A model generated the notes under the pieces. That model was not told the DNA's origin. It searched no databases and worked only from the letters and a program-made list of their open reading frames with translations. Positions 34,513-63,680 of a stretch of DNA of 64,000 nt are shown one piece after another. The DNA is from Sutcliffiella horikoshii. GTDB taxonomy: Bacteria; Bacillota; Bacilli; Bacillales; Bacillaceae_I. The DNA lies in assembly GCA_001636495.1 (NCBI GenBank), contig KV440964.1, forward strand, positions 2,062,666 through 2,126,665. Reading direction: 5' to 3'. Each line of letters begins with the position of its first letter. Positions within the stretch are counted from its first letter, which is position 1. Made by a program: the position numbers and the translations under genes.

Positions 34513-35488
34513 ATCAAATCTCCTTTCTATAGAAACAAGTATATTCCATTTTATTCACTAATCTCAGTAAGGTATAGTCATATCACCAGAAAGGGCATTA
34601 ATATAGAAATTTTTTGAATGGTGTTAAGCTCCTATAAACGAAAAGCACGATTATATTAAGATTGAATTTAACTAATACTCGAACCTCGCAGGGATATGCA
34701 TTAAGAAAAATATTAGTGAAGAGCTCTTATGATATAGTGGATATATAGTGTTTTTGCCCACTCCCCAAAACGGTCCAATTTTGAGAATATATTCTATAAG
34801 GGTTAATGCAAATAAATGCTAATCTAATTTTTGAATGGAAAGAGCCGATGTGGATTTAAAAACTTACACTATTTTGAAAAAGATAACCAGTTTATAAAAA
34901 GTTGCGATTTTTTTAAAGTTAACAGTCTTATAGGGCAGTATTATAAAGAAAACACTGTGGTAGAAGGATTTTTGAAAACTGTTGAACAAACTTATTTATA
35001 AAAATTGTATACTAATTGAAAAAAAGTGATTTCATTATAAACAATCTTTATTTAAAAATGGAGTCTCTTTGTTTGCTGTTAAACAGTAGCAGCATTCCCT
35101 GGAGTTTATAAATTCATTTGATACAACTTAAATCAGAATAGGGGTCTATGGTTTGAAAACTCCCTCTTTTTAATGAGAGGCAGTCATTAGGATGTTATTT
35201 TAGGAGTTTAATATTCTGATCGCTTCAATTTTATTACTGTCGATTATTACACTATCTGCTGTAGAATCGGAAGTTGGAAATTTGGAATCTTCCGCAATAG
35301 GGCGCCATTCGGGAACAAGAATTGGCGCTCACTTTTCATTTTAGGGCCAGATTGTGTAATAACACTTGGGAGTTGAATTGGATATTTATGTTAAAATGAT
35401 TAGAGATTGTGAAGGATTGACTTAAAGTAAAAGAGCAGGTTAATGAAATTAGAGATTGCATATTAAGAAAGTCTAAGGAGGTTAAAGG
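34513..35488. other. Gene-poor kilobase with coding debris
   Basis: No complete gene is supported. An open stretch at about 34833-35000 (plus) reads CGFKNLHYFEKDNQFIKSCD and ends EGFLKTVEQTYL, without a start or ribosome site, and may be the tail of a lost gene. Around 35200-35290 another frame reads LIASILLLSIITLSAVES ahead of a repeat copy, probably a truncated membrane peptide. Confidence 0.4.
35287..35365 (+). repeat. Intergenic repeat, GCCATTC variant
   Basis: ATCTTCCGCAATAGGGCGCC and GAATTGGCGCTC form the stem around CATTCGGGAACAA, followed by ACTTTTCATTTTAGGGCCAG and ATTGTGTAATAAC. This variant replaces the GAAATAATTGG box by the GGGCCAGATTGTG tract; it recurs at 57275, 61706, 62218 and 63608. 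Confidence 0.75.
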
Positions 35489-35539
35489 GTGGGACTTTTA
35501 ATAATTATACTCATTGGGTACGCACCGTATATCGTTTAG
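35489..35539 (+). pseudogene. Truncated small peptide gene
   Basis: AAGGAGGTTAAAGG precedes GTG 35489, and 16 codons (MGLLIIILIGYAPYIV) end in TAG. The excellent ribosome site with so short a hydrophobic product suggests the start of a small membrane-protein gene whose remainder is lost or mutated; a true micro-peptide is possible. Confidence 0.3.
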
Positions 35540-35614
35540 AAAGAATGCTTTGTATGCTTATTCTATTAAACTTAATAAATATATTTAACAAAATTCAATG
35601 TAAGGCTGAGGAAT

Positions 35615-36007
35615 GTGAAAAATTGGAAGTCTAAAGTTCTATTAGTTTTATTGATTTCAAGTATAGGGTTAAATGTTTTTCTGATTGGAAATTGGTTTTT
35701 ATATAAGAAACCGTCTATCCCAACGGCTGAGGAAAAGGTTATTTTAAGTGAAATGGTAATAAAAACCATTGATAGTGAAGATTATAAAAGTTTGGCGGAA
35801 ACTGAAAATATAATTTCTATTGATACAACTGTTGACAAATTTAAAGGAGGAGTATTCCCCTTTTATTTAAATGTAGCGGTTAAAACTGATAAGCAAACTT
35901 ACCTTTTCTCTTGCACTGATAAAAAGTGTTCTAATGTGACCAATGAAGGATGGACTTATTCCATATATGAAGATGAAAACCCAAGGCTTCCATTAAAAGA
36001 AAAATGA
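35615..36007 (+). CDS. Membrane-anchored hypothetical protein (130 aa)
   Basis: A GTG start with GAGGAAT close by. One N-terminal membrane anchor (VLLVLLISSIGLNVFLIGNW) is followed by an extracellular domain of about 100 residues with a CTDKKC pair that may form a disulfide. The C-terminus is beta-rich (YLNVAVKTDKQTYLFSCTDK). No family is recognised. Flanked on both sides by repeat copies. Confidence 0.6.
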   Translation: MKNWKSKVLLVLLISSIGLNVFLIGNWFLYKKPSIPTAEEKVILSEMVIKTIDSEDYKSLAETENIISIDTTVDKFKGGVFPFYLNVAVKTDKQTYLFSCTDKKCSNVTNEGWTYSIYEDENPRLPLKEK

Positions 36008-36059
36008 TACTGTTAAATTGTGAAGAAATGTACTTAAAGGGAGCTTTTCTTTAATAGCG

Positions 36060-36120
36060 ATCTTCCGCAATCGGGCGCTAGTACGAAAGAGTGGGAGCTG
36101 TCATAAAGGCAGCTCCTTTG
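36060..36120 (+). repeat. Intergenic repeat, short form with terminator
   Basis: ATCTTCCGCAATCGGGCGC is identical to the left arm of other copies. The downstream part differs: GGAGCTG and CAGCTCC form a stem followed by TTTGAC. No GAAATAATTGG box is present. Confidence 0.65.
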
Positions 36121-36201
36121 ACTTATTAAGCTAAAAAGTCAATTACTATAGGTTACATAAAACTTACATCCGAGGAAAAGATAACCTTGGAGGTGCTAAA
36201 A

Positions 36202-36957
36202 ATGAAAAGAATTATGATAACAATAATTACTTTAGGCATTTTATTTTTATCAACACAAACAGGGATGGCGACACCACCTTTTAAAGAGGGTAATGTAGTT
36301 AGTAACTTTATACATACGTTAGTTAGAAACGGTGAAAATCAAGCAAGGTCATTTACAGTTCCTGATGTTAAAATACCTGAAATTCGAGAAAAAACACCAA
36401 TCAATGGGTTTTCTGGATTAAATTCCCCTAATGAAAATGTAAGAGTAATAATTGGCTACTTTGAAAGTGGAGAGAATGAACCAGAAAGAATTGCGTTTAT
36501 ATGGGAAGTAACATCTAATAAAGAAAAAGTTACTGATATAAGAGTTGTGTTCGATGGTTCTAATCCATTTATAAATGAAGCAAAAGCAATTCAAGAGTAT
36601 CAAGATAAAATGAATACTTCTATACTTGCAGCCTCCGAGTTTCCTTTTGACATTACCCATATTGACGCAGATTTTAATAAAGATACACTAATGTTGAGGT
36701 ATAGGAATGCTGATTTACAAGGATTAGTTCAGGTGAAAATAGCACCAATTGATACTGATTTAAAGAAGTTAAAAGGTGAAAATGATGAATATTATACATT
36801 GAAGAGCGGTACGAAAGCACTGTATCAGAATGTTCCTTCTGCCCATCAACTTATCTTTCAACATAAGAATTCAAGGTATTCAATTGGTATAAGTAAAACA
36901 ACGAAAAAAGATATTGCAGTGGAGGATTTACTTAAAATTGCTAATTCAATGTTCTAA
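36202..36957 (+). CDS. Secreted protein, possibly DUF4367-like
   Basis: ATG 36202 lies after TTGGAGGTG. A signal peptide (IMITIITLGILFLSTQTGMA) precedes about 230 extracellular residues. The C-terminal part, with ALYQNVPSAHQLIFQHKNSR, YSIGIS and VEDLLKIANSMF, resembles the end of DUF4367/LolA-like domains, in which a last helix follows GYxYxI strands. The N-terminal half contains NENVRVIIGYFESGENEPER and is unassigned. Role unknown. Confidence 0.6.
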   Translation: MKRIMITIITLGILFLSTQTGMATPPFKEGNVVSNFIHTLVRNGENQARSFTVPDVKIPEIREKTPINGFSGLNSPNENVRVIIGYFESGENEPERIAFIWEVTSNKEKVTDIRVVFDGSNPFINEAKAIQEYQDKMNTSILAASEFPFDITHIDADFNKDTLMLRYRNADLQGLVQVKIAPIDTDLKKLKGENDEYYTLKSGTKALYQNVPSAHQLIFQHKNSRYSIGISKTTKKDIAVEDLLKIANSMF

Positions 36958-36960
36958 AAC

Positions 36961-36990
36961 TAAGGGTTGCTACGGGCGACCCTTTTTTCT
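36961..36990 (+). terminator. Intrinsic terminator
   Basis: AAGGGTTGC and GCGACCCTT pair around TACGG, followed by TTTTCTTC. It ends the secreted-protein gene and is followed at once by another repeat copy. Confidence 0.75.
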
Positions 36991-37002
36991 TCAAACTTTT
37001 GG

Positions 37003-37115
37003 ATCTTCCACAAACGGCGCGATCTTGTAATAGGGATTTGTGCTTTTTTTATTTCACCGGGGCGAAAATTAACATATTGTAGGAATTTTTAGATTATGAA
37101 ATAATTGGTATTAAA
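37003..37115 (+). repeat. Composite intergenic repeat
   Basis: ATCTTCCACAAACGGCGCG, an eroded stem and a T-tract are followed by GGGGCGAAAATT, then CATATTGTAGGAATTTTTAG and GAAATAATTGGTATTAAA. The hairpin has lost much of its pairing but the 3' box is intact, 52 bp before the methyltransferase gene. Confidence 0.75.
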
Positions 37116-37166
37116 TATGGGGTGATTTGTTTATTACCATTGAATTAATCTAAAGGTGGAAAGCAA

Positions 37167-37970
37167 ATGAGACAAGAAGAACTTAGTAAAACAAATGAAA
37201 TAGGTTGGAATCAGGCAGCATATCAAGCCTGGGTTAATCGCCATGGATCACCAAGTAGTTATTCTCAATTATTAAAAGAAAACCCTAAGAAGACTGTGTC
37301 CCATTATCTAGACTTCATGGGTGATGTTAAGGGGAAGAAAGTAATCAACCTTTTAGGATCAAAAGGGAATAAAGCAGTTTCATTAGCTTTATTAGGTGCT
37401 AGTGTAACCGTGGTAGATATTTCTGAAGGAAATAGACAATATGCAACTGAATTAGCTGAAGCATCGGGAGTCAGCCTTAATTATGTAGTTTCAGATGTAT
37501 TGAACTTACCATCTCAAGATCAAGTACAACTAGGGGATTTTGATTATGTACTGTTAGAGTTGGGGGTATTGCATTATTTCATAGATTTAAATCCTCTTTT
37601 TGAAGTAGTGTTTAAGCTGTTAAGACCTGGTGGGAAATTTGTATTAAGAGACTATCATCCTTTTGTTTCAAAGCTAATCAATATTGATGATAATAAAGTA
37701 GTTGCCAATGGTAATTACTTCGATAAGGAAGTAAAACAAGTCGAGGTAGCATATAGTTTGTTATTATCAGAAAAAGAACGTGAAAAATTAAAGAAAAATA
37801 GTATTAGAAGATGGGGCTTAGGTGAAATCGTTACTGCAATTATTACTGCTGGTTTAACAATGGAAAGCTTAGAAGAAGAAGCAGGAATTAGATGGGCTTT
37901 TCCGGAAAATTCTCCTGACCACATTGAAGATAATATTCCTGGACTCTTTACGATTTTGGCCAAAAAATAA
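37167..37970 (+). CDS. Class I SAM-dependent methyltransferase
   Basis: A 267-residue methyltransferase. Motif I reads KVINLLGSKGNKAVSLALLG, in which the usual GxGxG is loosened to GSKGN. It is followed by VTVVDISEGNRQYATELAE, DFDYVLLELGVLHYFIDLNP and RPGGKFVLRDYHPF. The WNQAAYQAWVNRHGSPSSY N-terminus is typical of a Bacillus subgroup. AAAGGTGGAAAG gives the ribosome site. Substrate unknown. Confidence 0.87.
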   Translation: MRQEELSKTNEIGWNQAAYQAWVNRHGSPSSYSQLLKENPKKTVSHYLDFMGDVKGKKVINLLGSKGNKAVSLALLGASVTVVDISEGNRQYATELAEASGVSLNYVVSDVLNLPSQDQVQLGDFDYVLLELGVLHYFIDLNPLFEVVFKLLRPGGKFVLRDYHPFVSKLINIDDNKVVANGNYFDKEVKQVEVAYSLLLSEKEREKLKKNSIRRWGLGEIVTAIITAGLTMESLEEEAGIRWAFPENSPDHIEDNIPGLFTILAKK

Positions 37971-38145
37971 TATCATTTTTTAGTTGTAGCTTCTAATCTG
38001 TTAGGAGATAAACATTTTTTGTATATTCAATTTATAACAAATGGTTTTAAGAAATAGGGCGGGGTTGCCGTATAAGGTTTCGGATAATGAGATTTAGATC
38101 GATTAAAGAATATTGATTTAGTGTTCTTTTAGAGGAGGAATCTAT

Positions 38146-38592
38146 TTGAACTTAACCAAGGACAACGGAATTGAATTTCTTGATTTCATTAATTTATGTG
38201 AAGAAGATATGCTTAATTATCAAACATTAGCTGGTTCCATTGCGGTAATTAAATGTGAAGGAAAATATCTTATGTGTTACAACTTATGGCGTGAACAATG
38301 GGAATTGCCAGCTGGACGTAGAGAAGGTGATGAAACTCCAAAAGAATGTGCGATTAGAGAGTTGTTTGAGGAAACAGGACAAATAGTGACTAATTTAGAA
38401 TTTAAGGGATTATTAAAATCAAAAAAAGCAATAACTGGCGAAGTTAGATACAATCCAGTTTATTTTACTGAAGTGAAAAAACTACAACCTTTTATAGAAA
38501 ATGAAGAAACCTCTGATATAAGACTTTGGGACTTAAAAGAAGAATTAGGCTACTTAGATTCGGTGGATATACGGATATTTGAATTTATTTAA
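38146..38592 (+). CDS. Nudix hydrolase
   Basis: The Nudix box is complete: GRREGDETPKECAIRELFEE followed by TGQ (GX5EX7REUXEEXGU), at residues about 65-87, so the protein should hydrolyse a nucleoside diphosphate derivative with Mg2+. Before it are GSIAVIKCEGKYLMCYN and WELPAG. TTG start after GAGGAGGAATC. A fragment nearly identical to its C-terminal part lies at about 13905-13982. Confidence 0.92.
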   Translation: MNLTKDNGIEFLDFINLCEEDMLNYQTLAGSIAVIKCEGKYLMCYNLWREQWELPAGRREGDETPKECAIRELFEETGQIVTNLEFKGLLKSKKAITGEVRYNPVYFTEVKKLQPFIENEETSDIRLWDLKEELGYLDSVDIRIFEFI

Positions 38593-38703
38593 CATATTAC
38601 TGCTGATTAATGTAAACGAGAACACACACTATTAGTATGGCTGCTAATAGAACTTTTATTATTTTATTAAACTGCTAAAAGAAGCTACTTAGTTATTCCA
38701 TTA

Positions 38704-38817
38704 TAGGGCGCTTTCCTGTAACAAGGATAGGCGCTCATTTTTATTTAAGCCTAGTTGGAATATCTTATTGTAGGAATTTTTAGATTATGAAATAATTGGT
38801 ATTAAGCATATGGCAGC
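38704..38817 (+). repeat. Composite intergenic repeat
   Basis: GGGCGCTTTCCTGTAACAA and GGATAGGCGCTC form the terminator stem, followed by ATTTTTATTT, then TATCTTATTGTAGGAATTT and GAAATAATTGGTATTAAGC, about 48 bp ahead of the next start. One of the best-preserved copies. Confidence 0.85.
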
Positions 38818-38864
38818 ATTAATGAGCATTGCAGTTAAACATTGAGTGTGGATGGAGTGAATTT

Positions 38865-39818: not shown

Positions 39819-39834
39819 TTATTTGGTTATTGTT

Positions 39835-39870
39835 CCGAACGGGCGCAATCCTAGAATGATTTTAGATTGA
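39835..39870 (+). repeat. Short repeat copy
   Basis: TTGTTCCGAACGGGCGCAAT retains the left arm and GGGCGC core of the family, without a closing GCGCTC arm. It lies in the 78-bp gap between the YdcF and GNAT genes. Confidence 0.5.
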
Positions 39871-40316: not shown

Positions 40317-40412
40317 TTGTTATTCAAGAATAGGGCGCAAGAATTGAACATCGCGATTGCTACCGGGATCTCTTTCTTTTCTTAAGTTACTCGTTAATTC
40401 GTAAGGTTTCAG

Positions 40413-40715: not shown

Positions 40716-40718
40716 CTA

Positions 40719-40800
40719 GGAGCTTATCTGGGATAAAGGTAAGCTTTTTATTTATGTGAAATTTCTATTGAGTAAATGTTCATTATTTGAAATAATAATT
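40719..40800 (+). repeat. Terminator hairpin plus partial box
   Basis: AGGAGCTTATCT and AAGGTAAGCTTTTT form a terminator, followed by a T-rich spacer and ATTTGAAATAATAATT, a shortened form of the box. Same design as 19924-20010. Downstream to 41012 the DNA is AT-rich with no further feature apart from possible promoter sequence. Confidence 0.6.
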
Positions 40801-41012
40801 AAATCTCAAAGAAAACGTTAATATTTACAAAACAAGAAAGCCACATAATTTTGCTAATATTCATATAAACATTTGATTAGAAACCTAAAAAATTTAGTAA
40901 TAAATCTAGTCCCCCAGATTTATTCGATAAGAGAATGGAGCAATTAATTAATGAATAGTCCAATTTAAGCTTTCCCCATTAAAGATTTAACTTTAAAATT
41001 GGGGGATAAAAA

Positions 41013-42221: not shown

Positions 42222-42227
42222 ATATAT

Positions 42228-42265
42228 GGATGAAGGTTTTGGTTACTGCAAAACCTTCATTTTAG
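42228..42265 (+). terminator. Intrinsic terminator
   Basis: ATGAAGGTTTTG and CAAAACCTTCAT pair perfectly around GTTACTG and are followed by TTTAGTTT. It ends the MFS gene. Confidence 0.85.
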
Positions 42266-42395
42266 TTTATTAAATCTTTATCTTAGAGAATAAAGGAATG
42301 CATTTAATAACGAATTGAACCGAGCAGAAAGATCTTCTTGTTTAGGTAATCTGGAGCTTTAATCGTAGATCGTATTACAAGTTATCTCGAATTAA

Positions 42396-42450
42396 AGTCT
42401 TCCGCAATCGGGCGCGTTTATCGTATAACGCGCTTTTTTGTTTGGGCCAG
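42396..42450 (+). repeat. Intergenic repeat, short-stem form
   Basis: AGTCTTCCGCAATCGGGCGC has the family left arm; here GCGCGTTTATCG and TATAACGCGC close a different stem, followed by TTTTTTGTTTGGGCCAG. The stem sequence differs from other copies yet still pairs. Confidence 0.65.
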
Positions 42451-42643
42451 ATTTTTGTAGAAGCTTTCCGAAAACACCTGATTTTTTCATGCTAATCTGA
42501 GAAACAGATAATTAATTTAAGTTTAACTTGTTTCTACAAGATTATAAGAGTAAGGATTGCCCGAGAATAAAGTGGTACAGCATACATAAAAATTTCGTTT
42601 ATTGGCAAAATTAACTTGGACACAAAATCTAAGGAGCATTCTA

Positions 42644-43960
42644 ATGGAGAATTTGGTTAAAGAAATACAAAATATGTTTTCTGACCATGCTGATTTTTTC
42701 ATGGAGAAGGAAATAAAAGATAGCACACCTATTTATCTTATGGGATTTAACACCCTAATTGATTTAACCAAATCAAAATTGTATGTTCGCCAAATTGCAG
42801 GAACTTCAGCTTCGGTAAAAGAGCTTTTTATAAACCTCAGTGATCAGCTCGACATTGATTCCGAGCAAATTATACATGCGTTATTAAAAGGGAAATTAGT
42901 GATTGTATCAGAGAAAGATGAACGGAATGCCATAGTCGATCCAATCTCCCGAAATCTTACAAGAAGCATTGCTGAACCTCTAAGTGAAAGCCCTCTTCTA
43001 TCGTCTGTGGATGCCTTTGGCGAGGATATTGATACTAATATCGGGCTGATTAGGAAACGGTTGAACACTGAACGTCTGTATCATGGTTCCTTTGAAATTG
43101 GAGAATTTGAGAGTAGAAAACTATCAATGCTTTATATCAAGGGAAAAGCTCCGGATGCTCTAATTGGGGAAATTAAGAGGCAGATAAACCAAATTGACAC
43201 AGATATTGATACGGTAGAAGATCTCAATAAATATTTTGGTGAGCGCAGGTTCAGTATCGTAAGTCATGTTTTTCAGACAGAATTACCGAATGAGGCAACT
43301 CACTTCTTGAAAAAGAACAGAGTTGTGCTCTTTTTAGATAATTATCCTTTTGCGCTTGTATTTCCTCAAACCTTAATGGATATGTTTAATGTTTCTAGTG
43401 ATCGAAATTACCCAACAGTAATTGCGTATGTTATTCGAACACTAAGGGCCATCGGGGCAATTGTCAATGTCCTGCTTCCCGCATTATATGTTTCTGTCGT
43501 ATCTGTCAATCCTGAGGCATTGAAAATAGACCTGGCTTTATTTGTCTCGGAAAGTAGGCAAGGCATACCATTTCCGGCATTAGTTGAAACCATTACAATG
43601 GTAGTTTTAGTAGACTTAACACTTGAAGCGATTGTGAGGCTTCCAAAAAGTGTAGGTCCAACCATCACAATGGTTGGAGGAATCATCCTTGGCCAGGCGA
43701 TGGTGGAGGCAAAATTAGTGAGCCCATTATTAGTAATTGTGATTACTGCAATTGTCATTTCGGGTTCAGTTGTTTCGGGTATACAAAATTCCTTGTACAT
43801 CCGTCTGTTAAGATACCCTATATTAATTTTGGCCTCTATTTTTGGGCTGCTAGGTATGTTTATTGGTATTCTTTTTATCCTTGTATATCTGGCGAGTTTA
43901 AAATCGAACGGTATCCCTTACACAACGTTTCATATTAATAGAAAAGGTGACGCTAAATGA
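42644..43960 (+). CDS. Germinant receptor subunit GerA
   Basis: A 438-residue A subunit, shorter at the N-terminus than the other two. Landmarks: NIGLIRKRLNTERLYHGSFE, FLKKNRVVLFLDNYPFALVF, SSDRNYPTVIAYVIRTLRAI, LPKSVGPTITMVGGIILGQA and IRLLRYPILILASIFGLLGM. ATG 42644 lies seven bases after AAGGAG, inside a longer open frame. First gene of ger operon 3 (A-B-C); its stop overlaps the gerB start (ATGA). Confidence 0.9.
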   Translation: MENLVKEIQNMFSDHADFFMEKEIKDSTPIYLMGFNTLIDLTKSKLYVRQIAGTSASVKELFINLSDQLDIDSEQIIHALLKGKLVIVSEKDERNAIVDPISRNLTRSIAEPLSESPLLSSVDAFGEDIDTNIGLIRKRLNTERLYHGSFEIGEFESRKLSMLYIKGKAPDALIGEIKRQINQIDTDIDTVEDLNKYFGERRFSIVSHVFQTELPNEATHFLKKNRVVLFLDNYPFALVFPQTLMDMFNVSSDRNYPTVIAYVIRTLRAIGAIVNVLLPALYVSVVSVNPEALKIDLALFVSESRQGIPFPALVETITMVVLVDLTLEAIVRLPKSVGPTITMVGGIILGQAMVEAKLVSPLLVIVITAIVISGSVVSGIQNSLYIRLLRYPILILASIFGLLGMFIGILFILVYLASLKSNGIPYTTFHINRKGDAK

Positions 43961-45039
43961 TTCAAAAATTACAGATTGGATTTATCTTTATCATTATGTA
44001 TGTAAGTTTAAACCATTTGTTTTATCCGGATCTAATTTTGCAACTAACGAATTATGGACATTGGGGAGTGGTTTTTTGTCAAGGTTTGCTTCAATTATTT
44101 TTAATTTGGATTTATATAAAAGGATTGAGTTATTTTCCTCAACAGGATGTAATTGATATTTGTTTGAAAATCGGCAAACCAATTGCATTCATTCTTCTCA
44201 TTCCATTTGTAATTTCTTTAACAGCTTTGGTTACCATTAATAATCAGTTACATACTGAGGTTATAATCTCGATTTTTTTACCGCGCACCCCCTCCTGGCC
44301 AGTATTGGTACTTCTCTTTTTCATCACAACATATATCGCCTTAACAGGTTTAGGGACTATTCTTCGTGCATCCTTTTTCATATTCTTTATGGTTATTCCT
44401 TTGTTATTAATGATAACTTTCACCTCCTTTATAAATATTGATTGGTACAACGCAGCTCCGATTTGGCCACCTTCTATTAATTTTTTAAAAGAAAAAAAAT
44501 TCTTCTATCTTATGGGATATTCGGCTTTCTTACCCCTAGGATTCATGGTATACAAAACTGCATTAACTTTTCGTTCCATTTTTCTGGCATGGATGTGTGT
44601 AATGTTCTTCTCTCTTTCTTCGGTGTATATCCCACTATTGATATTTGGTCAAGAATCAGCCATTTCATTGACCTTTTCTATGGTTCGTGCAATTTATACT
44701 GTGGATGTCGATTGGTTCTTTTTAAATAAGCAATCAATGTTCTTGGGTTTATCTTTGATTGGATTCACTGTCATACTGAATGCCGTTTTACTATGGGTTA
44801 TTGGAAGAATTATGAATAAATTATTGAGATGGATAAAGGTTGAAATCTCCTACTGGATTATTGCTTTTTCTGTGGTCGCTTTTTTAGGTGCATTAATGGT
44901 CCCAAGTCTTGCTTGGACAGAAAGAATCTTTTTTTGGAGTGTGGGGGCCCAGGTCTTTTTTATGATAATAATTCCATTAACCATTTATATCTATGGATTT
45001 ATAATAAAAAGGAGAACAGCGTTTTATGAAGAGGGTTAA
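43957..45039 (+). CDS. Germinant receptor permease subunit GerB
   Basis: A 360-residue, ten-helix spore germination permease. It opens with IQKLQIGFIFIIMYVSLNHL and contains LTGLGTILRASFFIFFMVIP and a TVDVDWFFLNKQSMFLGLSL segment comparable to the RxDxx region of other GerB proteins. AAAAGGTGACG precedes the ATG within gerA. It overlaps gerC by 14 bases. Confidence 0.85.
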   Translation: MIQKLQIGFIFIIMYVSLNHLFYPDLILQLTNYGHWGVVFCQGLLQLFLIWIYIKGLSYFPQQDVIDICLKIGKPIAFILLIPFVISLTALVTINNQLHTEVIISIFLPRTPSWPVLVLLFFITTYIALTGLGTILRASFFIFFMVIPLLLMITFTSFINIDWYNAAPIWPPSINFLKEKKFFYLMGYSAFLPLGFMVYKTALTFRSIFLAWMCVMFFSLSSVYIPLLIFGQESAISLTFSMVRAIYTVDVDWFFLNKQSMFLGLSLIGFTVILNAVLLWVIGRIMNKLLRWIKVEISYWIIAFSVVAFLGALMVPSLAWTERIFFWSVGAQVFFMIIIPLTIYIYGFIIKRRTAFYEEG

Positions 45040-46072
45040 AGCTTTGATGATATTAATGTTTCTGGTTACCTTTCTCAGCGGATGTTGGGATATTAAGGAT
45101 ATAGATAAAAGAGTTCTCCCGTTGGTAATTGGTATTTCCAAAGTTAACAATGAGGACTATAAGGTAACGGTGCAAATCCCCATAACAAAAAAAGACGGCG
45201 AAATTTCGAGAATAGTAACAAGTATAGATGAAAATGTTTCTAGTGCCCTTGGACAAATAAAAACAAACTCTGAAAATGCGGTGGATTATTCACATGTGCG
45301 ATTGGTTATAATACAATCGGATTTATCAGATAACAAAGAAGAATTGAAGAAACTTGTGACGTTTTTGATGACCTCAAGGGAATTTCCCACAAACGCACAA
45401 TTGGCTTTTACAGATGTTTCTATTGAGGAACTGCTGTCAAATATTAACGACAAACTAGGTGTTGATTCCACTTCTTTATATGATTTTTTTAACAAAGGGG
45501 CTGGCTGGGCACCCGAGATTTTAAGTACTCGTATTTGGGAAGTGTATCGTAGTATGTTTTCATACACTGAAGATATAACCATTCCTATTGTTGATCCTGG
45601 AAAGGATACGGTAATAAATTATAAGGGCGCTGTTGCCTTAAAATTGGGTGAACTTACTCAAAGAATCGACCCTAATGAAACCCAATTAATTAAATTGTTC
45701 CAAAACAAAAATGCAAAAGGAAAAATAGAGAATGTTGGTTTTGCAAGTGTTATGATTACAAGTAGCGACATCGAAAATAAAACGTTAATGGAAAGTAATA
45801 AACCAGTAGTGTCTATTGACGTAAAGTTAAAAATACACGTTTTGGAACGAGAAGCAGGAATCTCGAATGAACTGATCAAAAAGGACCTAGAAAAGCTTAT
45901 TGAAGAACGGTTTAATAAGATGTTTGAAAAAGCTCAAGAAAACAAAACCGATATTTTTGGATTTGGTCAATATTTTCGAAATCAAATTCCATATGATGAT
46001 TTAAAAAATTGGAGAGAAGAGTATTATCCTGATTTAAAAGTGGATTTTCAAGTCCACACCAGTATGGAGTAA
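45026..46072 (+). CDS. Ger(x)C-family germination lipoprotein
   Basis: The signal peptide ends in the canonical FLSGCWDIKDIDKR, with the lipidated cysteine at residue 20. ISKVNNEDYKVTVQIPI, YSHVRLVIIQSDL and a C-terminal GFGQYFRNQIPYDDLKNWRE (the family's end motif) are all present. AAAAGGAG lies within gerB. Last gene of operon 3. Confidence 0.9.
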   Translation: MKRVKALMILMFLVTFLSGCWDIKDIDKRVLPLVIGISKVNNEDYKVTVQIPITKKDGEISRIVTSIDENVSSALGQIKTNSENAVDYSHVRLVIIQSDLSDNKEELKKLVTFLMTSREFPTNAQLAFTDVSIEELLSNINDKLGVDSTSLYDFFNKGAGWAPEILSTRIWEVYRSMFSYTEDITIPIVDPGKDTVINYKGAVALKLGELTQRIDPNETQLIKLFQNKNAKGKIENVGFASVMITSSDIENKTLMESNKPVVSIDVKLKIHVLEREAGISNELIKKDLEKLIEERFNKMFEKAQENKTDIFGFGQYFRNQIPYDDLKNWREEYYPDLKVDFQVHTSME

Positions 46073-46207
46073 CACTGGATTTATATGTTCTTATTTTGGA
46101 ATATATTGCAAGGAAACAATAAAAACAATACGCTAGAATAACCGGCTAATCTATAATTAATCTAGTGGGTATCAACCTAAATAAAAGTCAACAATAGTAA
46201 CCTCAAT

Positions 46208-46330
46208 TCTTATTCAACAAACGGGCGCGATCCTGGAATAAGGATCAGCGCTCGTTTTTATGTTGGCGAAAAAATATTTAATTGAAGGAATTTTAATATT
46301 ATGAAATAATTGGAATTAAGCAAACGGGCA
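46208..46330 (+). repeat. Composite intergenic repeat, well-preserved copy
   Basis: TTATTCAACAAACGGGCGCG then ATCCTGGAATAAGGAT and CAGCGCTCGTTTTTATG form the terminator. ATTGAAGGAATTTTAATATT and GAAATAATTGGAATTAAGC, then AAACGGGCAG, form the 3' part. It separates gerC from an unrelated small membrane-protein gene. Confidence 0.85.
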
Positions 46331-46379
46331 GTTTAGTTGAATAAACAGTGGTTACATTATGAGTAGGAGGTGTAACCTA

Positions 46380-47205: not shown

Positions 47206-47285
47206 TTATTCAGCTAACGCTCCATTAGTTCAATAACAATCTTCAACAATCTAGGGCTGATAGCTGAATAATAATTGTTGTAGTT
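47206..47285 (+). repeat. Hairpin repeat, TAGGGC core
   Basis: TTATTCAGCT immediately after the stop codon pairs with AGCTGAATAA at 47262-47271, enclosing TTCAACAATCTAGGGCTGAT. The core AATCTAGGGC is shared with 59437. Little T-run follows, so it is a poor terminator. Confidence 0.55.
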
Positions 47286-48209: not shown

Positions 48210-48335
48210 ATTATTCAGCAATCGGGCGCGATCCAGGAACAAGGATCAGCGCCATTTTTGTCGTGGCCAAAGAGAATTTCATATTGTAGGAATTATTAGA
48301 TTATGAAATAATTGGAATTAAGCAAACGGGCAGTT
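48210..48335 (+). repeat. Composite intergenic repeat
   Basis: TTATTCAGCAATCGGGCGCG with ATCCAGGAACAAGGAT and CAGCGCCATTTTTG, then GGCCAAAGAG, TATTGTAGGAATTATTAG and GAAATAATTGGAATTAAGC, then AAACGGGCAG. All blocks are present. Confidence 0.85.
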
Positions 48336-48391
48336 TAGTGAAATACAGAATTTTAAAAATGTTACAATAAATAAAAAGGGAGAGGATAACT

Positions 48392-48836: not shown

Positions 48837-48852
48837 GTAATTTCTTATGCCG

Positions 48853-48868
48853 CAATCTGAAGCGATTG
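48853..48868 (+). repeat. Short hairpin repeat, TGAAGC loop
   Basis: CAATC-TGAAGC-GATTG is a five-pair hairpin in the same CCGCAATC context as the longer repeats. Confidence 0.45.
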
Positions 48869-48938
48869 TAACATAATGGATTATTTCTATATTATTAAAT
48901 AGGCTGGATTTTAGGGGGGAGTTTTTATAAAGAGTATA

Positions 48939-49246: not shown

Positions 49247-49279
49247 ATCTTCCGCAATCTAGGAGCTTTAATTGAAGAT
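49247..49279 (+). repeat. Short hairpin repeat, AATCTAGGAGC core
   Basis: ATCTTC and GAAGAT form the arms around CGCAATCTAGGAGCTTTAAT. The left part is the family arm ATCTTCCGCAATC; the right arm is complementary to it rather than to the arms of other copies. Confidence 0.55.
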
Positions 49280-49313
49280 AACGAAAAAGATTTTTATAGA
49301 GGGAGGTTATTAT

Positions 49314-49871: not shown

Positions 49872-49974
49872 AAGAAAATTTTTAATTCACCGTATACTTA
49901 CCGATTTCAGTTGTAGCAATTGTAGACTAGCATAAGGTCAATTTCGCAACAATGAGAATTATCTTGATATCAAG

Positions 49975-50092
49975 TCTTCCTTTTAAAAGCGCGATCCACA
50001 AGGATCAGCGCTCGTTTTTATATGGGCCAAAGAAAATATCTTATTGAAGGAATTTTTAGATTATGAAATAATTGGAATTAAGAAAACGGGTA
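49975..50092 (+). repeat. Composite intergenic repeat
   Basis: GCGCGATCCACAAGGATC and AGCGCTCGTTTTTATATG form a compact terminator; GGGCCAAAG, TTATTGAAGGAATTTTTAG and GAAATAATTGGAATTAAG follow. The left arm is altered (TCTTCCTTTTAAAAGC). Confidence 0.85.
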
Positions 50093-50155
50093 GGATAGTT
50101 AAACTACTTTGGATATTTCACATTATGTTGAGAAACATATATAGGAGGTCAGACC

Positions 50156-51357: not shown

Positions 51358-51484
51358 TCTTCGTTCGGCAATCGGGCGCGATTCTGTATCATGGATCAGC
51401 GTTCGTTTTTATATTGGAGAAGGGAATATCTTGTTGTAGGAATATTTATATTATGAAACAATTGGAATTAAGCAAACAGGCAGA
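51358..51484 (+). repeat. Composite intergenic repeat
   Basis: TCGGCAATCGGGCGCG, ATTCTGTATCATGGAT and CAGCGTTCGTTTTTATAT form the terminator; TTGTTGTAGGAATATTTA and GAAACAATTGGAATTAAGC, then AAACAGGCAG, form the 3' part. A few substitutions relative to consensus. Confidence 0.8.
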
Positions 51485-51541
51485 ATAATATACAAAGGAT
51501 TGATAGAATTTCTGCTCAAACAGATATAAGTAAAGGGGTAT

Positions 51542-52993: not shown

Positions 52994-53022
52994 TTAGATC
53001 AATATTCTATAAATAAGTATCT

Positions 53023-53146
53023 TATCTTCAGCAATCGGCGCGATCCAGGAAAAAGGATCAGCGCTCACTTTATTTTTAGAAGAATGTAGAATAACTTATT
53101 GTAGGAATTTTTTAATTAAAAAAATTGAAATATGAAATAGGGCAGC
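53023..53146 (+). repeat. Composite intergenic repeat, mutated box
   Basis: ATCTTCAGCAATCGGCGCG, ATCCAGGAAAAAGGAT and CAGCGCTCACTTTATTT keep the hairpin. The 3' box is altered: TTATTGTAGGAATTTTTTAA followed by AAAAATTGAAATATGAAATA, then GGGCAGC. Confidence 0.7.
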
Positions 53147-55789: not shown

Positions 55790-55908
55790 TTATTCCGCAA
55801 TCGGGCGCTATCCACGAACAGGGATCAGCGCTCATTTAATTGAACTGGATGGAGAATTACATATTGTAGGAATTTATTGATTATGAAATAATTGGTATAA
55901 AGTGTTAG
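55790..55908 (+). repeat. Composite intergenic repeat
   Basis: TTATTCCGCAATCGGGCGCT, ATCCACGAACAGGGAT and CAGCGCTCATTTAATTG form the hairpin; CATATTGTAGGAATTTATTG and GAAATAATTGGTATAAAG follow. The box has TGG before TATAAA, a near-consensus extended -10. Confidence 0.82.
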
Positions 55909-55988
55909 AGCACTGTCATTTAATAGAATAACACATAGTAGGAAAATTAGGATTGGCCTATATCCATAGGAAGATGGGGATAGAAAAA

Positions 55989-56501: not shown

Positions 56502-56552
56502 AATAATTGAATAAGTTTCTAGTTCACAAATAATTTAGTATAAGGGGTTAGT

Positions 56553-57254: not shown

Positions 57255-57274
57255 GAAAAACGGCGTGATTTTAG

Positions 57275-57350
57275 CATCTTCCATTATCGGGCGCCATTCT
57301 GGAACAAGAATAGGCGCTCACTTTTCATTTTAGGACCAGATTAGTTAATA
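57275..57350 (+). repeat. Intergenic repeat, GCCATTC variant
   Basis: ATCTTCCATTATCGGGCGCC, ATTCTGGAACAAGAAT and AGGCGCTCACTTTTCATTTT form a strong terminator after ccdA, followed by AGGACCAGATTAGTTAATA. Nearly the same as the copies at 35287 and 61706. Confidence 0.8.
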
Positions 57351-57758: not shown

Positions 57759-57777
57759 ACCGGTTTTCAATAAAACG

Positions 57778-57812
57778 GGCGACTTTCAGTAGTAACGAAA
57801 GCGCCTTTTCCT
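57778..57812 (+). terminator. Terminator, GGGCG-core repeat variant
   Basis: GGGCGACTTTC and GAAAGCGCC pair around AGTAGTAAC, followed by TTTTCC. The GGGCG...GCGCC ends link it to the repeat family, while the inner stem is unrelated in sequence. Confidence 0.7.
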
Positions 57813-57948
57813 ATGTTTCCCAACCTCTATGTACTATCCTAAACTAAACCATTCCCCTAGATTGTTGAATAAAATCGTATAAAACCTACTTTTCTAGTCA
57901 AGACTATTCTTAAGATTAATTGGTTTGTAAACTAGGAGAGTGAAGTAG

Positions 57949-58791
57949 ATGCTATTGTCACAAGTTTGGGAGAAATACCAGCTTGATAAAAAGATAGAGG
58001 GGTATTCACCGCTAACATTAAAAACCTATTGTTTTCAATATAATATGTTGTTGCGTTACTTTGGGGATATCGACCTGAACAAAATGACCACAGATCAGTT
58101 AAAAGAGTATCTGATCAAGGGAAGCACGCATCTAAAACCCTCAAGTTTGGGGCATAGAGTTCGATGTATTAGGTCATTATTCAAATGGGCAAATGACGAA
58201 GGGTTAATAAAAAAGAATCCAGCAGCTAAGCTGAAAGAACCAAAGCTTGGGAAACGAATTCCAAAATTCTTAACCGAACTTGAAATTGAACACCTCCGTG
58301 AATCCTGTCAAAACTCCATGGAGAATGCGTTATTTGAATTCTTTTATTCAACTGGTTGTCGTATTGGCGAAGTTGTTAAACTTAATCGTGATGATATCAA
58401 TTTCGCGTCAAATTCGGTCATCGTTCATGGAAAAGGGGATAAAGAACGGGAGGTATATTTCAATACTCGGTGCTCCTTGTGGTTAAAGAGATATCTCGAT
58501 GAGCGAGATGACCAGGACCCGTGTTTGTTCATAACCGAGAGGAGACCTAAGAGAAGAATGAGTATCGACTTAATAAGATACATTATTAAGCGTATATCGT
58601 CTGGAGCCGGGATTAAGAAGAGCATTCATCCACATCAATTAAGGCATAGCTACGCTACGCATATGATTAACAATGGAGCTCCACTGGAAGTAATACAAAG
58701 TTTACTTGGCCATGAAAAAAGTGAAACAACAAGAATTTATGCTCAGCTAAGTGGGAAGTTACGAAAAGATCTCTACAGCAAATACTTTTAA
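57949..58791 (+). CDS. Tyrosine recombinase (XerC/D-like)
   Basis: A 280-residue site-specific recombinase with an N-terminal SAM-like core-binding domain (LTLKTYCFQYNMLLRYFGDI, HRVRCIRSLFKWANDEGLI) and a C-terminal catalytic domain containing all key residues: Arg in STGCRIGEVVKL, Lys in HGKGDKEREV, HxxR in IHPHQLRHSYATHMI, His in LLGHEKSETTRIYAQL and the nucleophilic Tyr in the same motif. It is not the chromosome-dimer XerC/D context and lacks the insertion typical of integron integrases. It stands alone among single-gene units flanked by hairpin repeats. AGGAGAGTGAAG ribosome site. Confidence 0.93.
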   Translation: MLLSQVWEKYQLDKKIEGYSPLTLKTYCFQYNMLLRYFGDIDLNKMTTDQLKEYLIKGSTHLKPSSLGHRVRCIRSLFKWANDEGLIKKNPAAKLKEPKLGKRIPKFLTELEIEHLRESCQNSMENALFEFFYSTGCRIGEVVKLNRDDINFASNSVIVHGKGDKEREVYFNTRCSLWLKRYLDERDDQDPCLFITERRPKRRMSIDLIRYIIKRISSGAGIKKSIHPHQLRHSYATHMINNGAPLEVIQSLLGHEKSETTRIYAQLSGKLRKDLYSKYF

Positions 58792-58796
58792 AAAAT

Positions 58797-58828
58797 CACG
58801 TTCAAATTTGAGCGTGATTTTTTATATT
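58797..58828 (+). terminator. Intrinsic terminator
   Basis: AAATCACGTTCAAA and TTTGAGCGTGATTT pair almost perfectly and are followed by TTTTATATTG. It ends the recombinase gene. Confidence 0.85.
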
Positions 58829-58860
58829 GAATGAAAATAAAAGATTGAGTTTATCACTTG

Positions 58861-58895
58861 TTTTTGAAATAATTGGTATTAAGCAATCGGGCAGG
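58861..58895 (+). repeat. Promoter-like box of the repeat, alone
   Basis: TTTTTGAAATAATTGGTATT, AAGC then AATCGGGCAGG, without an associated GGGCGC hairpin; the upstream recombinase terminator takes that place. It lies 63 bp before the next gene, the same position as in composite copies. Confidence 0.75.
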
Positions 58896-58957
58896 TTTGT
58901 GGAATAAGAAGCCACCTTTGTACTAAAGAAAAAGAAGCTTTGAGGTGATTAAGATAT

Positions 58958-59436: not shown

Positions 59437-59468
59437 TTATTCAACAATCTAGGGCGATTGTTGAATAA
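59437..59468 (+). repeat. Perfect short hairpin repeat, TAGGGC loop
   Basis: TTATTCAACAATC-TAGGGC-GATTGTTGAATAA is a perfect 13-pair hairpin with a six-base loop, directly after the hypothetical gene. No T-run follows, so it is not a classical terminator. A separate terminator (AACTCAG...GCTGGGTTATTTTTT) follows at 59495-59530. Confidence 0.75.
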
Positions 59469-60389: not shown

Positions 60390-60869
60390 ATGGGCATTTT
60401 TGACTGGTTTAACGAAAATGAAGAAACTCGAAAGAAAAGACAAAAAGAGGTACGAGAAGTAGAGGGAGTAAGAGATACGGAATTCGCTGCGGAAGAAGCA
60501 CACCTTGATCTTCGAGAAGAAGAATTAGATATTCACAAAGACCGTGTCGAAACAGGTGACGTAGTTCTCCATAAAGATATCGTCGAGGAAGAACAAACTG
60601 TCAATGTTCCTGTTTCCCATGATCAAGTAATTATCGAAAGTCGAGAGGTTGACCATGAGCTTACGGATGAACCAATTAATGAGGAAGAAACGGTTCATAT
60701 ACCAGTTACTGCTGAGAAGATCGAAGTGGATAAGCATACAGTCGTAACGGGGGAAGTATCTGCTCATAAGCGATCCGTTGAAGAAACAGAACAAGTACGA
60801 GATGTACTTCACAAAGAAGTTGCTGAAGTGGAAGAACATGGTGATACGGATATTATTAGAAAAGACTAA
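60390..60869 (+). CDS. DUF2382 (YsnF/AvaK) domain protein
   Basis: A 159-residue, very acidic and charged protein with two copies of the DUF2382 motif: LDLREEELDIHKDRVETGDV, LHKDIVEEEQTVNVPVSHDQ, and VHIPVTAEKIEVDKHTVVTG, EVSAHKRSVEETEQVRD. In Bacillus these are linked with general stress (YsnF). TTAGGAGGTC precedes the ATG. A paralogue follows at 61027 after a terminator. Confidence 0.88.
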   Translation: MGIFDWFNENEETRKKRQKEVREVEGVRDTEFAAEEAHLDLREEELDIHKDRVETGDVVLHKDIVEEEQTVNVPVSHDQVIIESREVDHELTDEPINEEETVHIPVTAEKIEVDKHTVVTGEVSAHKRSVEETEQVRDVLHKEVAEVEEHGDTDIIRKD

Positions 60870-61026: not shown

Positions 61027-61542
61027 ATGGGTAAGTATATTATTATCGGAGCGTTTATTGGTAGCGTCGTTGGATGGGTATTGAATTTTTCGCTCATAAT
61101 AGGTTTTATTTTAGGGGCAATCGTCGGTGGAATTAGCTATACGTTTTTTTCCAAACGAAATGACAAACGAATAGATGAGACAACCGAGTCTGGAGAACAA
61201 AAAATGCTGCTGCGAGAGGAAAAATTGGATATAACTAAAGAGCGTGTTCAAACAGGGGATGTAAAGGTTCATAAAGAAGTGGTAGAAGAACAAAAAACAT
61301 TTACTGTCCCAATTAGACGGGAGGAAATGGTCATTGAAGCAGGGGATGAAGAAGCGTATCGGATTCCTATAAAAGAAGAGGAAGTTCAAATAACTAAAAA
61401 GCCTGTCAAAGTGAATGAAGTATCTATTTCCAAACGTGAAGTGGAAGAAATGGAACAAGTAAAAGAAATGGTAAAAAAAGAAACGGTTGACATTGAGATT
61501 ATAGGAAATGGAGATGTAAAAAAGAATGGTGAGCAACTATAA
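61027..61542 (+). CDS. DUF2382 protein with glycine-zipper membrane anchor
   Basis: Residues 1-40 form one or two small-residue-rich membrane helices (YIIIGAFIGSVVGWVLNF, IIGFILGAIVGGISYTFF). They are followed by DUF2382: LLREEKLDITKERVQTGDVK, VHKEVVEEQKTFTVPIRREE and ISKREVEEMEQVKEMVKKET. It is a paralogue of the soluble protein at 60390; together they may form a stress-type pair, one anchored and one soluble (inference). ATTAGGAGGATCGC ribosome site. Confidence 0.88.
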   Translation: MGKYIIIGAFIGSVVGWVLNFSLIIGFILGAIVGGISYTFFSKRNDKRIDETTESGEQKMLLREEKLDITKERVQTGDVKVHKEVVEEQKTFTVPIRREEMVIEAGDEEAYRIPIKEEEVQITKKPVKVNEVSISKREVEEMEQVKEMVKKETVDIEIIGNGDVKKNGEQL

Positions 61543-61705
61543 TTGTTCCTTTGTTTAATAAGTCCTATGTGGTGCGCTGCTATTTTCTAATTAACTTAAA
61601 TATGCAACGTGTAAAAAGCGTTGCTATTTAACTTTTTTATATATGTGCACTAAAACTAAGTTATTTGTTGCACAGTACAACGATACTATTCATTAGGAAA
61701 AGGAT

Positions 61706-61752
61706 ATTCAACGGGCGCCATTCTGGAACAAGAATAGGCGCTCACTTTTTTT
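61706..61752 (+). repeat. Intergenic repeat, GCCATTC variant
   Basis: TTCAACGGGCGCC, ATTCTGGAACAAGAAT and AGGCGCTCACTTTTTTTC form a strong terminator-like hairpin. The core is identical to 57288 onward over more than 30 bases. About 160 bp separate it from the DUF2382 stop. Confidence 0.8.
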
Positions 61753-61959
61753 CTAACGCACCAAAAATAACCATAATTTCAACTTGCATCCATGACTTTG
61801 ATGTCTAATTAATATAAATCCTAATGAAATCTTAAGAGAAAGCTAGAATCTAGAGTTATTCCTTTCTTTATAGAGGGAGGATAGTTGAACAAGTAGATGG
61901 GAACATTAATAATTAGTGTTTAAATAGAACTACTACTCAATGGGTGGTTATGACATATT

Positions 61960-62217: not shown

Positions 62218-62300
62218 TTACTCAACTATCGGGAGCATTTCTTGAGTAAGAAAATGTGCCTTCTGCATGAAAAGGGCCAGATTGTGGAGTAACTTCTTTA
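62218..62300 (+). repeat. Hairpin repeat with TTACTCAA/TTGAGTAA arms
   Basis: TTACTCAA and TTGAGTAA (62218-62249) pair around CTATCGGGAGCATTTC, which keeps the ATCGGGAGC core. GGGCCAGATTGTGGAGTAAC follows at about 62275, as in the 35287 copy. The arms differ from all other copies but remain complementary. Confidence 0.65.
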
Positions 62301-62434
62301 AAGAAAATTAGATCTCTTCCCTAAATTTAAAAGTGATTGTGAAATTATAAACTTAAAGTAATCCTGTCTTAAAGACGATATAATAGCTTCTATAGAGTAG
62401 TGTAATGTTTGGATTCGTAAAAGGAGGTTTGTTC

Positions 62435-63055: not shown

Positions 63056-63198
63056 TAATATTCTCTTACACTACTTACTTATCGGGCTAAACCGTTAGTT
63101 GAATAATCAAAGGAGTTGCTGCTACAACCTCCTCACTTTACTAAAGGGTAGCTTTAGTGTAAAAGAATAATTAATTTTTAGAATGAGAAATGATATTT

Positions 63199-63257
63199 AG
63201 TTATTCCAGGATAGGGCGCGATCCAGTAACAAGGAGCTGCGCTCGTTTTATTTTTCC
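63199..63257 (+). repeat. Intergenic repeat copy
   Basis: TTATTCCAGGATAGGGCGCG, ATCCAGTAACAAGGA and GCTGCGCTCGTTTTATTTTT form the terminator hairpin. The 3' promoter-like box is absent; a minus-strand gene follows instead. Confidence 0.75.
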
Positions 63258-63318
63258 CAGGGTGACTAAAAAATGGAAAGTAAAAAAAGGAAGTTTTATC
63301 AGCGAAAAAATAAAATAA

Positions 63319-63340
63319 AAAGGCGATGAAGTCATCGCCA
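63319..63340 (-). terminator. Intrinsic terminator (minus strand)
   Basis: GGCGATGA and TCATCGCC pair around CT and are followed on the minus strand by TTTTTATTTT. It ends the small gene at 63344-63493. Confidence 0.85.
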
Positions 63341-63343
63341 AAT

Positions 63344-63493
63344 TTAAGCGTCTTTATTAGAGCGTTCCTGATGATATATATAATCAACCCGTTCTTTAGT
63401 TTTCATAAGTAGTGAAGCTAAAATAGCAGTGTAAATAGATGTTAAAAGAATTGCAATCATTCCTACACCAAACAAATTATTATTGCCATTCAT
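63344..63493 (-). CDS. Small membrane protein (49 aa)
   Basis: ATG 63493 is preceded by AAAAAGGTGGTGG on the minus strand. The peptide has a polar start (MNGNNN), one hydrophobic helix (LFGVGMIAILLTSIYTAILA) and a charged tail (KTKERVDYIYHQERSNKDA). Ribosome site, length and a dedicated terminator support a real gene. Function unknown. Confidence 0.65.
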   Translation of the reverse strand: MNGNNNLFGVGMIAILLTSIYTAILASLLMKTKERVDYIYHQERSNKDA

Positions 63494-63607
63494 TGGTACC
63501 ACCACCTTTTTTTAATGTTGCAACAATATTTTGCACTTGGAACTTATTTTTATTCAAAAAAATTAAGGAATTGTCCGCAGTTCGACCATACTATTCAATA
63601 GAAAGTG

Positions 63608-63680
63608 GATATTAAACAAACGGGCGCTATCAGTACCAAGGGTCAGCGCTCTTTATTAATAACTCCAGATTGTGAAATAA
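63608..63680 (+). repeat. Intergenic repeat copy
   Basis: ATTAAACAAACGGGCGCTAT, CAGTACCAAGGGT and CAGCGCTCTTTATTAAT form the hairpin, followed by CCAGATTGTGAAATAAC, the tract of the 35287 variant. Confidence 0.75.

Follow-up and report, generated by a model that had tools for sequence, protein, structure and literature searches.

Arm–spacer–arm sites and exchanged gene units in Sutcliffiella horikoshii: a candidate gene-cassette array in Bacillaceae

The integron integrase IntI carries a family-specific extra domain and the crossover at its attC sites lies in the 3′ R box; dif modules hold their sites in alternating orientation, dif itself being laid out as arm, 6 bp and arm. The dif modules (pdif, XerC/XerD) of Acinetobacter place accessory genes between short Xer-type sites (PMC6449649, PMC12907356, PMC13141974), the IntegronFinder 2.0 survey gives the Firmicutes one complete integron and a few integrase-less clusters, integrons being extremely rare there (PMC9024848), and Bacillus genomes hold stem-loop repeat families of 70–170 bp, namely Bcr1, Bant-1 and Bhal-1 (PMC2267715). 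Here we describe a repeated element that separates a one-way run of genes in S. horikoshii, within a stretch of 64,000 nucleotides (“the window,” positions 2,062,666–2,126,665 of the main contig of the 4.26-Mb source genome). Judging from the sequence, the element and the genes between its copies very probably form an array of gene cassettes whose units are exchanged through site-specific recombination, integron-like in its working and not an integron by either integrase or site. No description of such a system was found in the open-access literature searched, a scope that leaves preprints and most subscription journals outside.

The repeated element and its one-way arrangement

The core of the element is a 13-bp arm (TTATTCnnCAATC), a 6-bp spacer (mostly GGGCGC) and a partly matching inverted arm. 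Its short form is a plain inverted repeat, best seen at 59437–59468 (13+6+13); the long form adds a hairpin, mostly of 31 nt (155 copies) and with a T-rich tail in 154 of the 155, often followed by a promoter-like TTGAAG/TTGTAG-17-AATAAT and then by a second site with the spacer GGGCAG. Second sites of this kind number 97 by pattern, 62 of them sitting 100–109 bp downstream of a first site. An arm-6-arm search allowing up to four arm mismatches gave 191 matches across all loci and 0 in base-shuffled loci, a count that takes in both strands, counts a palindromic site twice and includes some overlapping loci. The inner hairpin stem covaries, with 34 two-sided changes where shuffles reached at most 29 (no correction made for relatedness), and the outer stem shows no excess over shuffles. 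The hairpin may act as a terminator and the tail as a promoter. At gathering thresholds Rfam returned two T-box leaders in the window, at 18097–18362 and 22908–23175, and nothing else.

The original prediction, made from the letters of the window, had seen a hairpin after nearly every gene from about 35 to 63.7 kb. Both pattern and nhmmer searches recover the hairpin there on the + strand, but the real unit is larger: the arm–spacer–arm core is joined by the hairpin, the promoter-like tail and a second site. A short simple site is all that some junctions hold, and sites also occur left of 35 kb (Table 1), with tail-like copies near 48, 10876 and 19986. The units, said to be of single genes, mostly are, one three-gene unit with GerA and GerC proteins (42602–46072) being an exception.

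Across the 4.26 Mb of the source genome a strict hairpin pattern was matched 10 times forward and 0 times in reverse (control 0), eight of the matches lying inside the window and two at 2.614–2.616 Mb. A looser core pattern at 0–1 mismatch gave 13 forward matches and one reverse; two of the forward matches, at 2.1348 and 2.1355 Mb, show the array continuing for about 9 kb beyond the end of the window. At two mismatches the count was 38+23 against 21+8 in the control, which is then no longer clean. The window and 60 stretches fetched around site clusters make up 61 stretches with 1.15 Mb from 14 genomes; in these, nhmmer found 258 copies at E ≤ 0.01, and none in two fetched stretches. The uniform orientation noted earlier thus holds in the source genome and in nearly every stretch, though not in two where it is mixed (L142, 1 against 5; L174, 1 against 1). 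Forward and reverse counts were 0/12 in G001, 0/7 in G009 and 1/44 in G015 (G000 denotes the source genome and G001–G015 other Sutcliffiella genomes; draft genomes are unreadable for orientation). The claim that copies avoid genes is also borne out: none of 258 anchored sites lies inside an open reading frame (ORF) of at least 100 aa, against 1601 of 2440 random points. These anchored sites (at least 5 of 6 GGGCGC spacer bases, majority orientation only, stretch ends excluded) are a selection separate from the 258 nhmmer copies.

The strict pattern is present in 15 of 16 Sutcliffiella genomes (source included); the two genomes drawn from the same family both have it, and it is absent from all 132 others sampled in the order. 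A 16-base core, matched exactly, reached more widely, to 62 of 299 genomes of the order and 39 of 116 genera, the reversed core used as control being found in one genome. One or two ORFs of at least 60 aa are held by 113 of 187 units. A cargo scan (80 proteins from 129 units with a suitable ORF, E ≤ 1e-5) matched 66 families in all; among the 25 listed were GNAT (PF00583) with 12, Lactamase_B with 5, methyltransferase (PF08241) and NUDIX with 4 each, and the beta-lactamase family and APH with 2 each. Seven PADLOC families match the cargo, the strongest being mad2 (4 members, best 1.8e-21).

Exchange of units between species and the position of breakpoints

When the 61 stretches were compared all against all, each oriented by its sites, the window from 36 to 59 kb was seen to be a mosaic of blocks that match different Sutcliffiella genomes, with units 89–98% identical to copies that stand beside other neighbours in other species. 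One block (91%, G011) begins at 39841, the first spacer base of one simple site, and stops at 40338, the last spacer base of the next; the unit enclosed holds a GNAT gene. Cassettes shared with G002 are 96.1% identical against 83.4% for the core (xerD region, 2.7 kb), those shared with G009 89.4% against 76.3% (xerD region, 3.8 kb), and those of the pair G001–G015 99.98% over 5.6 kb against 94% for rpoB; the contrast is clear in these three cases and weak for G007. The slowly changing rpoB of the window genome is 93.9% identical to that of G001, 93.2% to G007 and 86.7% to G005. Among 43 pairs of homologous whole cassettes, which are not independent of one another, the neighbour on the right differs in 20 of the 28 cases that could be tested and the one on the left in 15 of 23. 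Two stretches from two species (L151 of G015 and L180 of G008) have 13.1 kb in common at 99.985% identity, from which it follows that long multi-cassette stretches move too.

The ends of such blocks often fall at the element. For homologous blocks of at least 90% identity and at least 300 bp, a scored site is no more than 30 bp away from 95 of 236 distinct starts, compared with 101 of 5000 random points, and 115 of 268 ends lie within −130..+30 of one, compared with 277 of 5000. Identity profiles across 47 starts and 34 ends (blocks of at least 92% identity and 350 bp) run mostly at 0.86–0.98 inside the unit and drop at the spacer to the level of random element pairs. A mixture model of non-redundant junctions (at least 90% identity) put the best 7-bp crossover window at −5..+1 for 27 starts and −1..+5 for 26 ends, with a fraction of 0.57 each and log-likelihood gains of 16.5 and 17.9; elsewhere, ends gave no gain from +14 on and starts at +14..+27 gained at most 3.1. 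These profiles support a crossover within the 6-bp spacer or at its left edge, which is where the hairpin has its 5′ foot; the terminator-like hairpin and promoter-like tail would then move together with the gene downstream of them. In other genera, sites are near 64 of 202 block starts (99 of 5000 random points), and the switch of identity at the spacer is seen at 68 start and 8 end junctions, the starts being mostly pairwise comparisons of recombinase cassettes and not independent.

One clean gain or loss was observed. Bacillus sp. OK048 (L129) has the order A|B where Neobacillus soli (L130) has A|X|Y|B, B being a recombinase unit and all three L130 sites having the spacer GGGTGC; at the L129 junction, identity is 92% to the left flank of A|X and to the right flank of Y|B, and 62% to the remaining flanks. 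This single event reads as two units gained or lost with both breakpoints at the spacer, as a deletion or insertion between direct sites would give. It came from six insertion/deletion (indel) candidates in other genera, of which it alone was clean by offsets and was the sole one inspected by sequence.

The original prediction had suggested a cassette-like system or a recombination hotspot, and had treated breakpoints unrelated to the hairpin as evidence against itself. The suggestion is supported: gene-plus-element units are indeed common to several species, and the breakpoints looked at are related to the element. Its expectation of single units gained or lost with breakpoints inside the hairpin was realized in part, the event just described involving two units and the crossover lying at the 5′ foot of the hairpin.

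The recombinase, a proposed mechanism and its alternatives

The complete tyrosine recombinase that had been recognized at 57949, and said not to be of IntI type, proved to be both. Its gene (57949–58791) scores 133 bits with Phage_integrase, and alignment to XerD (1a0p) shows a complete R-K-H-R-H-Y set, which we take to be the catalytic positions. The protein lies just over the cut-off of the NCBIfam XerA-type model NF040815 (222.8 vs 220) and below those of XerC (TIGR02224, 207 vs 335), XerD (TIGR02225, 204 vs 330) and integron integrase (TIGR02249, 100.4 vs 265 bits; PRK15417, 61 vs 435). The gene is itself a cassette, flanked by sites with spacers at 57777 and 58889, and this position suggests that the enzyme acts on them. 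Array recombinases from many Bacillaceae genera form one clade (support 100/99, 22 rows), separate in the tree from XerD and Xer-like rows.

Among the best 80 of 300 relatives (79 loci, nearly all from Bacillaceae and their neighbours by record title), the closest, at 98, 97 and 96% identity, belong to Sutcliffiella deserti and S. rhizosphaerae. At the 47 loci of at least 72% identity, 250 sites run with the direction of the gene and 60 against it, and 26 of the 47 have a site 136–191 bp before the start codon. At the 32 loci of 65–71% identity, 18 sites run with the gene and 152 against it, with an other-strand site at +889..+904 (about 50 bp past the stop) in 14 of the 32. Among opposite-strand sites, some are a palindrome read in reverse. 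Phage matches to the recombinase are 34–36% identical. The window from 35500 to 60000 has no near match beyond 73 bp among PLSDB plasmids, and in two Peribacillus plasmids the genes flanking a copy that was matched in two pieces follow a near-identical order, the few site-like matches are the same in both, and no indel is seen. A plasmid stretch filed under Arthrobacter citreus (L214, CP053689.1:107827-148663) carries a recombinase 63% identical to that of the window, 35 of 41 annotated genes on the opposite strand, and similar arms with spacers TGATGC, TAATGC and GCATGC; other matches to its DNA are in Bacillaceae, and the species label may be wrong.

G001 and G008 also have four tandem tyrosine recombinases (276–293 aa), which were weighed as candidates for the array enzyme and set aside; in the tree they sit on long branches away from the array clade. 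They lie behind an ORF of 1248 or 1225 aa and adjoin one array-type site (L140, G001:C1:3162995-3166398; L174, G008:C83:7072-10535), in an 8.2-kb block that is 94.8% identical between the two genomes and is possibly a separate mobile element.

A cassette, as we would draw it, consists of a spacer, a terminator-like hairpin that would serve the gene on its left, a promoter-like tail, a gene and a left arm, and ends at the next spacer. The XerA-like recombinase, carried as a cassette, would most likely bind the arms, with strand exchange taking place over the spacer and probably between DNA duplexes; a pair of direct sites would release a circle of one or more cassettes, which could enter at another site, and since the spacer is asymmetric, incoming cassettes would take one orientation. 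We lean, with less assurance, towards a wider picture of an independent Bacillaceae platform, having a dedicated XerA-like clade carried as cassettes, promoter- and terminator-bearing cassettes, duplex arm–6 bp–arm sites, spacers (GGGCGC/GGGTGC/TGATGC) serving as compatibility codes, and a pool that spans genera and plasmids.

Several observations weigh against a cassette array worked by this enzyme. An intact recombinase (at least 65% identity) is present in 5 of 16 Sutcliffiella genomes (G000, G005, G008, G010 and G013), and G007 and G009 keep remnants of it, 38 and 42 residues long, close to sites; in the other arrays either the enzyme was lost, as in some integron arrays, or another enzyme may be at work. 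The exact core occurs in 18 of 55 genomes with the recombinase and in 44 of 244 without it, a weak association (Fisher p = 0.026). As for the breakpoints, 141 of 236 block starts have no scored site in the 30 bp around them, and about 43% of the junctions in the mixture model are diffuse and outside the best window. Taken singly, junctions carry little information, and their intervals touch the spacer for 13 of 22 starts and for 13 of 24 ends. Outside Sutcliffiella, block ends near sites are only slightly in excess (22 of 192 vs 202 of 5000). Within Sutcliffiella there were eight indel candidates by coordinates, seven of them without a site in the inserted stretch; none of the six inspected by sequence was a cassette event, one resembling an insertion sequence and the rest having at least one breakpoint inside a gene or away from a site. 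The unequal orientation that had been expected genome-wide is plain in the source genome, but the finished genome G013 is split 5/5, forward at 0.34–0.58 Mb and reverse at 2.34–3.84 Mb; as this split follows chromosome region, uniform orientation may come partly from genes co-directional with replication. In the nhmmer alignment (258 hits, no GGGCGC filter) the spacer bases carry 2.05–2.40 bits and the left arm 0.5–1.7, but parts of the facing strand of the hairpin carry 2.0–2.4; as these equal the spacer, spacer conservation may serve the hairpin, and we have dropped it as evidence for duplex exchange. Finally, between 46 and 52 kb a consensus promoter scan gave 27 matches vs 31.1 in shuffles, and a terminator scan does not flag the bulged hairpins (2 vs 2.3).

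Could the element be simply a dispersed terminator-like repeat, with units shuffled by RecA-dependent homologous recombination in the repeats together with DNA uptake, and the recombinase a passenger? Such an account would be at ease with the terminator-like shape (hairpin length, T-rich tail and covarying inner stem), with the 13.1 kb common to G015 and G008, and with the majority of Sutcliffiella genomes lacking an intact recombinase. We nevertheless think it unlikely, as the breakpoints are centred on the spacer rather than the remaining hairpin or tail, though these are homologous too; blocks are bounded as well by simple sites that lack the terminator hairpin (39841, 40338, 47259); arm–spacer–arm symmetry is typical of tyrosine recombinase sites; and the site-bounded form of the recombinase would be left unexplained.

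A true integron, with folded single-stranded sites and a divergent integron integrase, is called to mind by the one-way array of mostly small units, by distal arms able to pair with the left arm, by the cargo of GNAT, NUDIX, methyltransferase and hydrolase genes, and by recombinases antisense to the sites in the 65–71% group; it is made quite improbable by the low score with TIGR02249 and by a crossover that splits the element at its 5′ end, leaving the two arms in different cassettes. We regard as very unlikely that host XerC/XerD moves the sites, in the manner of the Acinetobacter modules, with the 280-aa recombinase not the main enzyme. Sites do occur in genomes without an intact recombinase, arm-6 bp-arm is also the plan of dif, and the sole dif-like match (G009, at 1,910,745) has a strict-pattern site at a distance of about 2 kb (1,912,845). 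Yet the arms are unlike the dif sequence used for comparison, which matches in one of five genomes at up to three mismatches; the sites are direct where those of dif modules alternate; the array-recombinase clade, found among sites in many genera, stands apart from XerD and Xer-like rows; and short remnants of the recombinase persist near sites in G007 and G009.

Features of the locus and comparison with known systems

The sites and units of the window are collected in Table 1. Elsewhere in it, a minus-strand ORF (33370–34512) holds six tandem copies of a repeat of about 126 bp at 33478–34235, and the adjacent genes 60390–60869 and 61027–61542 appear by eye to code for similar charged repeat proteins.

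Table 1. Sites, units and homologous blocks in the window, with identities to other Sutcliffiella genomes
Feature	Position	Strand	Details	Homologous blocks
Long site + promoter-like tail	3777..3910	+	outside 35–64 kb range	
Long site	35287..35363	+	left arm 35287-35299, spacer GGGCGC 35300-35305, hairpin, T-run, right arm GATTGTGTAATAA	
Left arm + spacer	36060..36078	+	GGGCGC 36073-36078; opens unit 36061-37114	unit 97% in G001 and G015, beside other neighbours
Long site + promoter-like tail	37003..37140	+	opens methyltransferase unit	37002-38714 96% in G002, core region 83%
Long site + promoter-like tail	38693..38820	+	spacer 38706-38711; 3′ of NUDIX gene 38146-38592	
Simple site	39828..39859	+	spacer GGGCGC 39841-39846	
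Simple site	40320..40352	+	spacer 40333-40338	
Long site	42397..42465	+	spacer 42410-42415; 3′ of MFS gene	MFS-gene unit 40719-42457, 93% in G007
Three-gene unit	42517..46253	+	genes at 42602, 43957, 45026; GerA and GerC proteins	98% in G013
Long site	46210..46344	+	spacer GGGCGC 46223-46228; promoter-like TTGAAG-17-AATAAT 46282-46310; second site GGGCAG 46326-46331	
Simple site	47239..47272	+	spacer TAGGGC 47252-47257	G008 and G001 blocks start at 47259 and 47261
Long site + tail	48211..48345	+	spacer 48224-48229	
Simple site, variant spacer	48845..48880	+		
Simple site	49247..49280	+	TAGGAGC 49260-49266	49248-50081, starting here, 96% in G015 (two copies)
Long site + tail, left arm degraded	49974..50104	+	promoter-like TTGAAG-17-AATAAT 50044-50072	
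Long site + tail	51361..51485	+	spacer 51374-51379	
Long site + tail	53022..53140	+	spacer one base short (GGCGC)	
Long site + tail	55790..55920	+	spacer 55803-55808	
Long site	57276..57350	+	spacer 57289-57294; closes thioredoxin-like/DsbD-like unit	unit (block 55841-57350) 89% in G009; also 89% in G012
Site opening recombinase cassette	57771..57805	+	spacer GGGCGA 57777-57782	homology to G010 and G005 starts at 57773-57784; 57773-58908 94% in G010
Tyrosine recombinase, cassette gene	57949..58791	+	280 aa; R138, K165, H229, R232, H255, Y264 present	
Site closing recombinase cassette	58875..58907	+	spacer GGGCAG 58889-58894	
Simple site	59437..59468	+	perfect 13-bp inverted arms, spacer TAGGGC 59450-59455	
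Long site	61700..61757	+	spacer 61713-61718	
Site with distal right arm	62218..62292	+	spacer GGGAGC 62231-62236	
Long site	63201..63256	+	spacer 63214-63219	
Long site with distal right arm	63609..63680	+	spacer 63622-63627	

If units are indeed exchanged by site-specific recombination, a major Gram-positive family would possess a second cassette platform, and cassette arrays would have come about there with no part played by IntI and perhaps with no need of folded single-stranded sites. This would explain the movement of single genes between Bacillaceae species. The arms and spacer would be a mapped substrate for direct tests, and the cassette format would be ready for expression, as every unit seems to bring a promoter of its own and to terminate the transcript of the unit next to it.

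Set beside them by description only, Bcr1, Bant-1 and Bhal-1 resemble the present element in being stem-loop repeat families, theirs in Bacillus genomes, and differ in that the description consulted does not tie gene exchange to them (PMC2267715). With the dif modules the locus has in common accessory genes bounded by short Xer-type sites. It differs from these in arms unlike those of dif, in direct sites, in a dedicated recombinase clade within the array, and in long chromosomal arrays. The likeness is broadest to integrons (IntI/attC, including the chromosomal arrays of Vibrio), which likewise have small units running one way, imperfect inverted-repeat sites, exchange of units with breakpoints in the site, a tyrosine recombinase in the array, and GNAT, hydrolase and unknown genes as common cargo. 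Unlike theirs, the recombinase here fails the IntI model and is itself a cassette, and the crossover, placed in a 3′ R box in attC, falls here at the opposite, 5′ end, in a 6-bp spacer. The host, too, is different: the present arrays belong to Bacillaceae, and integrons are reported to be extremely rare in Firmicutes (PMC9024848).

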